Source: Candidatus Avelusimicrobium pullarium (GTDB taxonomy: Bacteria; Elusimicrobiota; Elusimicrobia; Elusimicrobiales; Elusimicrobiaceae). Taken from it: DNA of 64,000 nt. The position numbers and the translations under genes are program-made. How positions within the stretch are numbered: position 1 is the first letter of the stretch; each line of letters opens with the position of its first letter. The stretch covers positions 248,001 through 312,000 of the forward strand of contig CALUTQ010000002.1 of assembly GCA_944323745.1 (NCBI GenBank), in the 5' to 3' direction. Positions 10,330 to 52,081 of the stretch are shown here, piece by piece. The notes beneath the pieces were generated by a model that made no database searches, had not been told where the DNA came from, and saw only the letters and a list, made by a program, of their open reading frames with translations.

Positions 10330-10463
10330 AAATATCCTTTTATATATTTTACTATTTTATGGGGCCGCTTTATGCGCCTGCGCTTCTAACCCTAAATTTC
10401 CTTTTACGTTGTGCGGCAGGTTTTATATAAATAAATCAGCCGTACTAATTAAAGGAGGATGTT

Positions 10464-10976
10464 ATGAAAAAATTAGCTGTATTAGTTGCCTTGACTTTGC
10501 TGGCGGGGCCGGTTTTTGCCGCGTCCGGCGCGCTGAAACTGTCTTTATGGGACCGTGCCGCCATTGCCATTCCCAACAATATTGACGACGTAAAAGGGTT
10601 GGAATTGGGCATTGGCTCCAGCGCAGACAACTTTACGGGGGTTCAGTTTGATTTGCTTTATGCCAACACGCACGAAAAAACCGTAGGTTTAAGCCACGCC
10701 TTGGTAGATTTTGCCAATCATATGGTGGGCGTGCAGGGCGGTTTTTTGACCAAAGCCGCCAACGTGCAGGGCGTACAATGGGGTACCATCAACCTGACCA
10801 CGGAAGAAATGACGGGTTTGCAGTGGGGGTTTTATAACCAGGCCGAATCGGTAACCGGCGTGCAGCTGGGGTTTGTCAACTATGCCAAAAACATTTACGG
10901 GTTACAGCTGGGCGTGCTGAACATTGCCGAAAACGGCTGGCTGCCCGCAATGGTTATTGTAAACGGACGTTTCTGA
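10464..10976 (+). CDS. Exported surface-repeat protein (LA_2272-like), paralog 1
   Basis: A 170-residue protein with a clear signal peptide (~19 residues, cleavage near VFA/AS) and a strong ribosome site (AAAGGAGG). The mature part begins with SLWDRAAIAIPNN and then carries seven ~14-residue repeats of the form G[VL]Q.GF.N.A...., ending NGWLPAMVIVNGRF. Such arrays resemble what is annotated as LA_2272 family surface repeat proteins; the function is unknown. The terminal Phe and repeats of alternating polarity suggest a beta-structured outer-membrane or surface protein. It is followed by its own terminator and then by a paralog with the same ends. Confidence 0.7.
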   Translation: MKKLAVLVALTLLAGPVFAASGALKLSLWDRAAIAIPNNIDDVKGLELGIGSSADNFTGVQFDLLYANTHEKTVGLSHALVDFANHMVGVQGGFLTKAANVQGVQWGTINLTTEEMTGLQWGFYNQAESVTGVQLGFVNYAKNIYGLQLGVLNIAENGWLPAMVIVNGRF

Positions 10977-10988
10977 TTTTACGTCCCC

Positions 10989-11021
10989 AAAAAACGGACG
11001 CTTTAACGGCGTCCGTTTTTT
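10989..11021 (+). terminator. Rho-independent terminator
   Basis: A stem of AAAAACGGACG with its complement and a T run, 12 bases after the first surface-repeat gene. Confidence 0.8.
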
Positions 11022-11100
11022 TATAAAAAATTTTTGCCGCGGCGGCAGAAAAAAGTTACAATAAAAAGGTCTTACATTTTTGACAAAGGAGAAGGCCTGA

Positions 11101-11664
11101 ATGAAAAAACTCGTCCTGACACTTGCACTGGCTGTGGCGGCTTTGCCGGCTATGGCTTATGGAAACTCCAACATTAAAGTTTCGTTGTGGGACCGCATTG
11201 CCGCGGCCGCACCCAATAACAATATTGATGAAATCACCGGTTTGGATATCGGTATCGGCTCTACGGCCGAACACGTGTCCGGCGTGCAGTTTGATTTCAT
11301 CTACGCCAACACCAAAAATGATTTTATCGGCGTACAATGGGCCTGGATCTTGGCTGTCACGCCGGAATTTAAAGGCTGGCAGTCCGCTTTGCTGAATATG
11401 TCCGACCAGTTCATAGGTTTGCAGTCCGGTTTTGTAAACTACAACAAATACAATTTTACCGGCGTGCAATGGGGCTTGGCCAACATTACAGACTCTTTCA
11501 AAGGCGCCCAATTGGGTTTTGTCAACTACGCCAAATCGGTAAACGGTCTGCAGTTCGGCTTTGTCAACTATACCGAAAACATCTACGGCTTGCAGGTGGG
11601 CTTGCTGAACATTGCCCGCAACGGCTGGCTGCCCGCGATGGTCATCGTAAACGGCCGCTTCTAA
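11101..11664 (+). CDS. Exported surface-repeat protein (LA_2272-like), paralog 2
   Basis: A 187-residue paralog of the preceding gene. Signal peptide of ~19 residues (cleavage near AMA/YG), the same SLWDRIAAAAPNNN block, then eight ~14-residue repeats (GVQWGLANITDSFK, GAQLGFVNYAKSVN, GLQFGFVNYTENIY and others) and the identical C-terminus NGWLPAMVIVNGRF. One more repeat than paralog 1 explains most of the length difference, so gain or loss of repeat units is likely. Shine-Dalgarno AAAGGAGAAGG precedes the ATG. It has its own terminator. Function unknown; surface or outer-membrane location is inferred. Confidence 0.7.
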   Translation: MKKLVLTLALAVAALPAMAYGNSNIKVSLWDRIAAAAPNNNIDEITGLDIGIGSTAEHVSGVQFDFIYANTKNDFIGVQWAWILAVTPEFKGWQSALLNMSDQFIGLQSGFVNYNKYNFTGVQWGLANITDSFKGAQLGFVNYAKSVNGLQFGFVNYTENIYGLQVGLLNIARNGWLPAMVIVNGRF

Positions 11665-47559: not shown

Positions 47560-47861
47560 AAATATCCTCTTTGTGCTATTTAATTTAAACAAAAAAATGG
47601 CCCCAAGGTTTGGCTTTTCGGGAATATAAAGAAAAGCGTACTGCTTGAGGCGGTATATAAACAGTATAACGCTTTTAAAATTCAAAGTCAATCCGTCCGG
47701 CTGGCGCTTAGGAAGGCTTTCTGCTATGGCTGGCGCCATTTGTAAAGTATGTTGCGTTTGCTTGCATCAGGGTATTTAAGGGATAGGGCAATCTGCCCGA
47801 TAAGGTTTTGCCATACGGACACAGCAATTTAAAACGGTTTTTGACAAAGAATTATCTTTAT
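47560..47861. other. Upstream region of the NYN gene
   Basis: About 300 bases without a supported gene. It holds an inverted repeat AAAAGCGTACTG...CAGTATAACGCTTTT (47631-47675) that includes a minus-strand TATACT, a possible promoter/operator for the NYN gene with a leader of ~100 bases. Nothing else is recognised. Confidence 0.4.
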
Positions 47862-48239
47862 AAAAAAAGCCCGCTCGCCGCGGGCTGTAAAGTAAGCCAA
47901 GACGGGACCTCGCCTTCCGGTCATTTGCCTGACGCCAAATGCCTGCAGGCCGGGCTCGCGGTTTTTGCCTTTCGCTTCGCTCAAACAAAAGCATCGCTCC
48001 GCCTTTCGATCCCCCTCGCACGCCAAGCAGTTGGCGTGCTGTCTTGCCATAAAAAAAGCCCGCTCGCCGCGGGCTGTAAATTAAGCCAAGACGGGACCTC
48101 GCCTTCCGGTCATTTGCCTGACGCCAAATGCCTGCAGGCCGGGCTCGCGGTTTTTGCCTTTCGCTTCGCTCAAACAAAAGCATCGCTCCGCCTTTCGATC
48201 CCCCTCGCACGCCAAGCAGTTGGCGTGCTGTCTTGCCAT
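47862..48239 (-). repeat. Two 189-bp tandem repeats carrying tRNA-Thr 3' ends
   Basis: Unit 1 (47862-48050) and unit 2 (48051-48239) are nearly identical; I see one clear difference (GTAAAG versus GTAAAT). On the minus strand each unit has a spacer of ~142 bases, then CCCGTCTTGGCT (the last 12 bases of the adjacent tRNA-Thr), a short linker and the terminator hairpin AGCCCGCGGCGAGCGGGCT with seven T. The spacer holds a perfect 9-bp hairpin GCACGCCAA/TTGGCGTGC and CATTTG/CAAATG arms. Because 189 is 63 codons, frames run through both copies, but I see no reason to think they are translated. Confidence 0.8.
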
Positions 48240-48266
48240 AAAAAAAGCCCGCTCGCCGCGGGCTGT
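48240..48266 (-). terminator. Terminator of tRNA-Thr
   Basis: A 7-bp GC stem (AGCCCGC and complement) with seven T on the minus strand, just after the tRNA. The same hairpin is copied in both repeat units. Confidence 0.75.
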
Positions 48267-48272
48267 AAAGTA

Positions 48273-48345
48273 AGCCAAGACGGGGGATCGAACCCCGGAC
48301 CTGCCGCTTACGAAGCGGCTGCTCTACCAGCTGAGCTATCTTGGC
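48273..48345 (-). tRNA. tRNA-Thr, anticodon CGU
   Basis: A 73-base cloverleaf on the minus strand: acceptor stem GCCAAGA with TCTTGGC, D-arm GCTCAGCTGGTAGAGC, anticodon stem CCGC/GCGG with loop TTCGTAA (CGU, reads ACG) and T-loop GTTCGATC. Discriminator U. CCA is not encoded. It reads outward into the 189-bp repeats, which carry copies of its 3' end. Confidence 0.95.
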
Positions 48346-50950: not shown

Positions 50951-51409
50951 ATGAAAAAAGGTTTTACCTTAATTGAATTGTTGGTAGTTGTCCTTATTAT
51001 CGGCATTCTGGCGGCTATTGCCTTGCCGCAATACCAAAAAGCTGTTTTAAAAGCCCGTGTACCGGAAGCAATGGTTCTGATGGACAAAATCCATAAAGAA
51101 GCGGAGCTTTATCGTCTGGCTAACGGAACTTGGCCTTCCGACTTAAATCTTTTAGACGTAACGACCACCGGTAAATATTACACCATTTTCCTGATGGCGT
51201 ACACCAATCCTTTTTCGGTAATCGCTTTTCCAATCGGGGTTACTCAAGACGATCCTAATTTCTATACGCTCTACCAGGAAGTAAGCCGCAACGAAACAAC
51301 AGGAGAGATAAACCATTCGCGCTATTGTATGGGAAGCGCTTCCGTTTGCAAAGCAATCTCTACCGCAAGCAATTGCAATCCCCAAACTTATTCCTCCTGC
51401 ACGTTCTAA
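50951..51409 (+). CDS. Type IV pilin-like protein (prepilin), copy P5
   Basis: A 152-residue prepilin with a very short leader (MKKG) and processing before [25 protein letters not shown]. The C-terminal region has a short Cys loop ([14 protein letters not shown]) and a second pair ([11 protein letters not shown]). Unlike P1-P4 it has a normal leader and a strong Shine-Dalgarno (AAAGGAGAGA). It lies just left of the second plus-strand pilin. Confidence 0.87.
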
Positions 51410-51550
51410 ACAGCACCCTTACCAAGGGCAACTTTTATGCGGAGTAAAATAAGCGCATAGCAAAAAACAGTAATAATCGAAAAACCTAAAGCGACATTTC
51501 TTCACAGTACTATAGGACATTTTTATTGATATTGTTTTTTCCTGTTTTTT

Positions 51551-51559
51551 TGCTATACT
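51551..51559 (+). promoter_or_regulatory. Extended -10 promoter of pilin P6
   Basis: TGCTATACT after a T-rich tract; TTGTTT lies 16 bases upstream as a weak -35. The ~200 bases between P5 and here hold no gene and no clear terminator. Confidence 0.5.
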
Positions 51560-51607
51560 ATTTAGGAGCACTAGTGTGTGCCTATTTTGTAACTAAAGGA
51601 GAGAGTT

Positions 51608-52081
51608 ATGAAGAAAGGTTTTACCTTAATTGAATTGCTGGTAGTGGTTCTCATTATCGGCATTTTGTCTGCTATTGCCTTGCCGCAATACACGACCGCT
51701 GTGGAAAAAGCCCGCTCTGCCGAAGCCCTGACTTTGTTGGGCAACCTGCGCTATGCGGCGGAACGCACCCGCTTGCAAACCGGCGCTTGGCCGACAGACT
51801 TTGACGTGCTGGATATTGAAGTCCCCGGTACGACGTCCGGCACGGGTACGTCTATGACGTTTTACACCAAAAACTTTAAGTTCTCCGCCACGGGCGGCGG
51901 CAGCTCTACGGCTAACTATGTTATTACCGCTCAGCGCGCCAACAACGGCACGGCTACGACTGGTACCTCTGCCTACAGCTTGGTGATGACCGTCGGAACG
52001 GATGGCGATGCGGTACGCAGCTGCACGGGCGATACCACCCTCTGCAAAGCAATTACCGCCGGCAAAACGACGGACTTCTAA
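51608..52081 (+). CDS. Type IV pilin-like protein (prepilin), copy P6
   Basis: A 157-residue prepilin with a short MKKG leader and the same [24 protein letters not shown] helix. The globular part is Thr/Ser/Gly-rich (TTSGTGTSMTFYTK) and ends in the conserved short Cys loop RSCTGDTTLCKA. Strong Shine-Dalgarno. Followed by a terminator and then, within 61 bases, the end of the prophage on the opposite strand. Confidence 0.87.
   Translation: MKKGFTLIELLVVVLIIGILSAIALPQYTTAVEKARSAEALTLLGNLRYAAERTRLQTGAWPTDFDVLDIEVPGTTSGTGTSMTFYTKNFKFSATGGGSSTANYVITAQRANNGTATTGTSAYSLVMTVGTDGDAVRSCTGDTTLCKAITAGKTTDF

Follow-up and report, generated by a model that had tools for sequence, protein, structure and literature searches.

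A tRNA-tracking, hairpin-bearing repeat family of Elusimicrobiota as a candidate DNA-guided element

Behind the tRNA-Thr(CGU) gene in a 64,000-nucleotide stretch of Candidatus Avelusimicrobium pullarium (contig CALUTQ010000002.1, positions 248,001 to 312,000; hereafter the window) lies a tandem array of two 189-bp units, which belong to a structured, dispersed family positioned at the 3' ends of tRNA genes in the phylum Elusimicrobiota. Each unit bears two short arms that together form one antisense copy of the adjacent tRNA 3' end, split by a hairpin, and the arms vary with the tRNA that they follow. We tentatively interpret the family, with somewhat less than even confidence, as a non-autonomous hairpin-ended element that may recognise the tRNA gene 3' end by DNA base pairing, with an enzyme that would act in trans.

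Anatomy of the tRNA-associated repeat

The two units in the window (47860-48048 and 48049-48237) are 99% identical, and Tandem Repeats Finder (TRF) reports a period of 189, matches of 99% and a score of 843. As tRNA-Thr(CGU) is encoded on the minus strand, the array is located 3' of the tRNA and is read leftwards, from high to low coordinates. A 47-bp segment, composed of 12 nt of the tRNA-Thr 3' end (CCCGTCTTGGCT) and an intrinsic-terminator-like hairpin, is present three times (47860-47906, 48049-48095 and 48238-48284; identity 98-100%), with a spacer of ~142 nt between its copies. This arrangement, including the folded nature of the spacer, had been described in a first-pass annotation of the window and is borne out by the TRF, repeat and folding analyses; of 200 dinucleotide shuffles, 199 fold less well than the window unit (z -2.98), and a chance origin of the repeat is excluded. 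The spacer additionally carries a bipartite antisense copy of the tRNA-Thr 3' end (GGCAAGAC ... GGGGGATCGAA) around a hairpin; these arms, together with the scarcity of G.U pairs and the further copies in the source genome described below, had not been part of that annotation. A coding function for the repeat was rejected, with the open frames being by-products of GAGCGAAGCGAAAGG-type sequence.

Progressing 5' to 3' past the tRNA, a unit opens with a linker (t), in which a terminator-like hairpin is often present. There follow arm A' of 7-8 nt; a hairpin of 7-8 bp with the near-invariant loop AACTGCTT; arm B' of 11 nt ending in GAA; a core of two hairpins, P3 and P4; and a further copy of the tRNA 3' end, termed X. 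Arms A' and B' together constitute one antisense copy of the adjacent tRNA positions ~71 to 54 (position numbers are our assignment from aligned sequences), and the hairpin is inserted between the antisense of positions 65 and 64, which is the T-stem/acceptor junction. For the Val(CAC) unit at locus L213, for instance, the arms read AAGGTGGTAA and GGCAGGATTTGAA on either side of the hairpin, against an antisense of TGGTGGGTGGTACAGGATTTGAAC.

The arms follow the tRNA rather than copy X

Complementarity of the arms to their own tRNA is above that obtained with permuted assignments, with z of 15.4 for A' and 17.5 for B'; relatedness inflates both values, and we therefore also used internal contrasts of arm versus X and allele versus allele. 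Where X and the tRNA agree at tRNA positions 59-64, B' equals the tRNA antisense in 229 of 243 cells. Of the 92 cells in which they differ, B' sides with the tRNA in 87, with X in one and with neither in four, as counted on ungapped X alignments; a shift-tolerant comparison by element favoured the tRNA over X by 39:1. The same trend, weaker, was observed for A' (tRNA over X 8:1 by cells and 16:4 by elements, the latter shift-tolerant). When alleles of a single isoacceptor are compared, the own tRNA allele is the better match for A' in 30 cases and the poorer one in 5, with 30 ties; for Leu(GAG), the arms CGCGGGG, GCAGAG and GTGAGG accompany different tRNA alleles. A recurrent exception is a TC to GA change at two T-loop positions beside the GAA, present in Leu, His, Gln and some Asn units.

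Covariation and base pair composition of the stems

The predicted structure is paired in 97.3% of cells, with double (compensatory) changes in 28 of 32 pairs, in an alignment that had been fitted to the model; the unfitted alignment A1 still yields double changes in 26 of 35 pairs. The covariation score was 0.545 as compared to 0.165 for shuffled sequences, and controls in which the register was slid were paired in 32-49% of cells. G.U pairs account for 3 of 784 pairs in the hairpin (0.4%) and 9 of 1193 in P4 (0.75%); at the same loci, they account for 134 of 2624 pairs in the tRNAs (5.1%) and 59 of 939 in the linker terminator hairpins (6.3%). The mispairs in the hairpin and P4 comprise 12 G.T and 7 A.C, so that neither strand is favoured. 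Taken together, the scarcity of G.U pairs and the symmetry of the mispairs suggest, from sequence, that the constraint acts on the folding of DNA. Two invariant U.G contacts are present in P3; these may represent an internal loop.

The anatomy, complementarity, tracking of the tRNA, placement, covariation, scarcity of G.U pairs and filled or empty sites are direct observations, and the mechanism proposed here is an inference from them. In a folded single strand, B' would pair with the T-loop and the 3' strand of the T-stem of the tRNA gene and A' with the 3' strand of the acceptor, while the AACTGCTT hairpin at the junction would serve as a handle for a protein. Following cleavage at the tRNA end by a trans-acting enzyme, the single-stranded intermediate would be placed directly behind the tRNA end, finishing with its own X, such that each insertion would rebuild its target; arrays could expand if units reinsert or if X copies recombine with one another.

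The element family is distributed across Elusimicrobiota

The spacer was found next to other tRNAs, both in the source genome and in relatives, which upholds the first-pass view of a separate, structured and dispersed element associated with the 3' ends of tRNAs. In the source genome (1.6 Mb, two contigs), a single copy is present behind tRNA-Leu(GAG) and two tandem copies, with a period of 167 bp, behind tRNA-Met(CAU). In the genome collection, a 28-mer of the core is matched by 44 stretches, each of which is labelled Elusimicrobia, Elusimicrobium or Elusimicrobiaceae or belongs to an unnamed gut bin, and the element was present in 37 of 37 own-genus genomes of the first sample. A covariance model, R1, built from 50 element copies had matches in 117 of the 295 Elusimicrobiota genomes sampled; these belong to 23 of 90 genera in several families, distant ones included.

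A same-strand tRNA precedes 111 of 117 R1 matches in the fetched loci, with 26 tRNA species represented; 95 matches start 10-108 nt (median 47) past the tRNA, and 16 are later copies in arrays. The remaining six lack a full tRNA in the fetched DNA: the two matches at L072 and the one at L063 (the same copy as in L224) lie behind orphan tRNA 3' ends, that at L062 lies behind a tRNA-Ser cut by the end of the fetched stretch, and two others are positioned at contig ends. Within the genus, most copies are located behind an intrinsic-terminator-like hairpin; in several distant genomes (for example Tyr L194 and Arg L209), the gap between the tRNA and the element is only ~10-20 nt with no terminator.

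Searching viral_contigs with a 22-mer of the element returned no match, a lone pattern match in viral material being a chance occurrence inside a phage gene, and the element was not found in the plasmid and phage collections as far as these were searched; carriage by phages or plasmids was thus rejected for the collections covered. Rfam returned the tRNA alone for the window at the gathering threshold and no credible match for the element in five element-bearing loci at E up to 1, which rules out a known RNA family for these sequences; in the literature, we found no relevant description of such an element in Elusimicrobiota. The element is a new family without an Rfam match; in kind, we rate it as a variant, with its best-supported action resembling that of known hairpin-ended elements. 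In the vicinity of individual units, a fluoride riboswitch (RF01734, 61 bits) is positioned shortly behind the tRNA-Val unit (L213:1751-1811), and phage-like genes, the first of which we take to be a phage head gene, lie behind a tRNA-Leu unit (L007:2475-3497 / G000:C2:64977-68236); no integrase was found among them, and they probably represent a decayed prophage.

Filled and empty sites differ by one unit

Orthologous tRNA-Thr loci, located through an upstream O-antigen-ligase-like gene, carry zero, degenerate, one or two units in relatives, with one in the sister genome G010. At this locus, genome G126 is filled and G020 is empty, the difference being one unit with X and t (49 bp) on each side, and the junction comparison likewise places a repeated t at tRNA-Thr units. 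The loop of the linker terminator reads TTGC in G020 (L231) and GCAA, its reverse complement, in G001 and G126 (L229/L230).

At tRNA-Leu(GAG), a unit is present at 13 of 27 loci, ~10 are empty and a few retain only A' and the hairpin or a decayed core; this tally was obtained by reading the printed sequences, a script tally being coarser. The empty site of G221 runs from ...CGCGCAC directly into TTCACTATACAAGCCC, and the filled site of G016 contains a full unit (t, A', hairpin, B', core and X) between the two, with the homologous flank resuming after X. The difference is one unit placed exactly past ...CGCGCA, and the comparison thus defines the unit as the segment from t through to X, with a tRNA 3' end at either boundary. 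Of the repeated tiny-circle insertion suggested in the first-pass annotation, site-specific insertion at the tRNA end fits these filled and empty sites, while no evidence emerged for a circle made by an integrase; the difference at a given site may represent either a gain or a loss. Relic right-hand or solo copies (L235, L272, L275, L285 and L187) end within or just past the hairpin or B', and a solo tRNA-linker-A'-hairpin arrangement is present in G176.

Cores are more alike than expected both within a genome across tRNAs (p 0.002) and within the same tRNA across genomes (p <0.001). In the source genome, the Leu and Thr cores are 97% identical and their hairpins and arms differ. The family may thus have spread either by core exchange among resident units, or by units that move and gain new arms.

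Comparison to known hairpin elements and guides

The IS200/IS605 insertion sequences, exemplified by IS608 with its TnpA Y1 transposase of the HUH type, offer a close parallel in layout. The IS608 left end recognises its target through a guide, located at the 5' foot of a hairpin, that base pairs with it; in engineered versions, the pairing was extended to the 3' foot, giving targets of 12-17 nt (PMC5934647). Both systems possess a target, a linker, a guide at the 5' foot, a subterminal hairpin and further pairing at the 3' foot, with hairpins at the DNA level and, presumably, insertion 3' of the target; in the element, the subterminal hairpin with its guide is seen as complementarity and covariation. 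The element differs in the length of its natural pairing (~18 nt, as compared to 4), in having a tRNA 3' end as its target in every case and in carrying a direct copy of the target at its right end. Most of its carriers lack a Y1 transposase, because of which we do not file it as IS200/IS605. Like repetitive extragenic palindromic (REP) sequences, REPINs and bacterial interspersed mosaic elements (BIMEs) with their REP-associated tyrosine transposases (RAYTs), the element is short, dispersed, palindromic, intergenic and non-coding, with a small handle at the hairpin foot. The earlier guess of an element akin to REPs or to miniature inverted-repeat transposable elements comes nearest to the DNA-pairing interpretation preferred here; however, the element possesses neither a GT[AG]G foot nor a link to a RAYT (tnpA-REP) gene, and is set apart by its strict tRNA placement and locus-specific arms.

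Two antisense arms that flank a hairpin and pair with one contiguous target are also the working principle of 3/4 external guide sequences and H/ACA guide RNAs, which operate at the RNA level; to our knowledge, these are not natural bacterial guide families of such a kind. It is possible, though we lean towards doubting it, that the element is a natural guide element of a new kind: folded DNA (or RNA) with a bipartite guide of ~18 nt split by a putative protein-binding hairpin, occurring phylum-wide, maintained in complementarity to the tRNA genes of its host and acting on them. Such an element would either home into tRNA genes with a putative nuclease or recombinase, or act on the tRNA itself. 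Several other assignments were rejected. An IS110 bridge-RNA element is contradicted by the absence of the DEDD transposase (PF01548) from carriers and by both arms being antisense to the same strand, unlike bridge-RNA target loops. A TnpB-type guide RNA with X as the guide would draw on the fact that X starts right past the universal TTC of the T-loop, yet X is the less conserved copy. A retroelement primer-binding site does not agree with arms that end short of the CCA.

Weighing the interpretations

A number of observations weigh against an element aimed by DNA base pairing. The Y1 transposase (PF01797) was not found in the source genome and is absent from 34 of 41 genus genomes (present in 7), and the eight Y1 loci examined contain neither the element nor its hairpin; mobilisation by a resident Y1 enzyme in the manner of RAYT/IS200 was rejected on these grounds. 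The core is more elaborate than the ends of IS200/IS605 elements require, and no copy of the element was found at sites other than tRNA 3' ends. The filled and empty pairs fit loss as well as gain, since deletion by X-X recombination restores the empty site exactly. A move to another tRNA would require the unit to acquire matching arms, a step for which the model does not account; exchange of the core alone among resident units is an alternative. Mismatches in the arms at constrained positions are of the kind tolerated by wobble in a product of the tRNA sense strand in 27 cases and of the opposite kind in 11, an excess that fits RNA pairing better. Lastly, the RtT units of E. coli likewise end in a tRNA 3' end and start with an antisense arm, GGGGAAGGAT.

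The last two points lead to a functional RNA akin to RtT, which would be read through from the tRNA promoter, form a closed domain and be cut out by tRNA-processing enzymes, its arms pairing with the 3' half of the tRNA in the precursor or in trans; we consider this small-RNA alternative, also raised in the first-pass annotation, unlikely but plausible, given the similar layout of RtT. RtT of the E. coli tyrT operon (RF00391) occurs as tandem units behind a tRNA, with a GC-rich folded core; its arm (L215:711-1495) is antisense to tRNA-Tyr and is followed by GAGAA, the TC-to-GA variant seen in the Leu, His and Gln units. RtT has also been reported near other tRNAs, and RtT RNAs were detected on Northern blots in A. 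pleuropneumoniae (PMC4986893). A transcript would agree with the placement of the element on the same strand directly behind tRNAs of 26 species and with the short, terminator-free gaps in the distant genomes; conversely, the own-genus copies mostly sit behind terminator-like hairpins, G.U pairs are nearly missing from the stems with G.T hardly above A.C, and occurrence at any single tRNA locus is patchy among close relatives. Neither model finds the other family: R1 misses RtT, and the Rfam RtT model misses the element and matches E. coli only. The RtT arm is uninterrupted and possesses no AACTGCTT hairpin where the T-stem meets the acceptor. The element, too, has arms that may close the unit with the tRNA-end copy, but they are split by the hairpin and follow the tRNA better than they follow X. 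RtT is, moreover, a detected transcript, whereas the element is described here from DNA sequence.

Another interpretation is passive, neutral sequence evolution. A'/B' lie inverted with respect to the tRNA 3' end, with t between them, and a replication fork that switches templates there could recopy the tRNA into the arms; purifying selection would fix the tRNA side, the arms would follow, and copy number would change through X-X recombination. Template switching homogenises the arms of inverted repeats and inverts spacers (PMC8604942), and E. coli quasipalindromes provide a case of it (PMC7202029). This process would account for arms that track the tRNA rather than X, for stems that are perfect on both strands and for the terminator loops inverted between G020 (TTGC) and G126 (GCAA). 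It leaves unaccounted for the origin of the unit, the phylum-wide core, the invariant hairpin loop, the strict confinement to tRNA ends and the break by the hairpin at the same tRNA position everywhere, and we regard it as rather improbable. Local duplication or slippage behind one tRNA, another origin raised in the first-pass annotation, is scarcely credible: the window units are 99% identical and G010 has one, which this process would cover as a step from one unit to two, and X-X recombination can give the copy number of two, but a spacer dispersed behind many other tRNAs of this and other genomes refutes it as the whole origin.

A further proposal ties the units to integrative islands, with X as a surrogate attB that spares the tRNA or with the units as relics of island ends. 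In G011 (L216:1254-15176, G011:C34), a tyrosine integrase (10337-11449; PF00589, E 3e-26) is carried by an island of ~13.6 kb, which is inserted in tRNA-Val(GAC) and lies between the tRNA with a unit and a displaced tRNA-Val 3' half that retains its own unit; orphan tRNA 3' ends also precede units in G028, G007 and G033. In G028 (L217:548-16665, G028:C3), however, ~16 kb separate an intact tRNA-Val(GAC) without a unit from an orphan tRNA-Val 3' half with one, demonstrating that islands do not need the unit. No island adjoins the window copy, units are not required at both island ends beside an integrase, as would be expected of a tyrosine-integrase attachment site, and the antisense arms, covarying stems and invariant loop are left unaccounted for. 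An attachment-site or relic role is highly improbable; islands carry, flank or disturb units and do not make them.

Were DNA-guided insertion to hold, the family would constitute a natural element whose long DNA guide, in two parts, is directed at a class of genes that is both conserved and essential. It would be a natural counterpart of the laboratory IS608 design, and would point to an enzyme yet to be named. Should the RNA interpretation hold instead, it would constitute an RNA family spanning the phylum, with members linked to particular tRNAs, and would offer many independent examples on which to test the role of E. coli rtT, which was noted in 1991 and has yet to be clarified. Either would account for tRNA-end repeats otherwise labelled as slippage.

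The array in the window and its neighbours

All features of the window array are on the minus strand. The tRNA-Thr(CGU) gene spans 48273-48345, with positions ~54-71 matched by the arms. In the proximal unit, the linker t with its terminator-like hairpin and T-run occupies 48238-48272, as delimited by the repeat and arm A'. Arm A' (GGCAAGAC, 48230-48237) is antisense at 7 of 8 positions to the 3' strand of the acceptor. The hairpin GCACGCC-AACTGCTT-GGCGTGC (48207-48228), the loop of which is invariant in alignment A1, is followed by arm B' (GA-GGGGGATCGAA, 48194-48206), with its final 11 nt antisense to the T-stem 3' strand and T-loop, a match also recovered as an inverted repeat. The conserved core (48096-48193) contains two covarying hairpins, P3 with a conserved internal loop and P4 with a GTCAG-type loop, and the unit is closed by the X copy CCCGTCTTGGCT at 48084-48095, identified by the sequence repeat.

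The distal unit repeats this order, with linker/terminator t at 48049-48083 (sequence repeat), A' at 48041-48048 (189-bp register), the hairpin at 48018-48039 (sequence repeat and covariance-model match), B' at 48005-48017 (inverted repeat) and the core at 47907-48004 (covariance-model match 47906-48039). The last X copy (47895-47906) and the last terminator-like hairpin (47860-47894), both defined by the sequence repeat, complete the array. An NYN-domain gene (PF01936; 46852-47559) adjoins the array and is present in no other of the 61 genus genomes searched, and two consecutive pilin-like genes lie nearby at 50951-52081.
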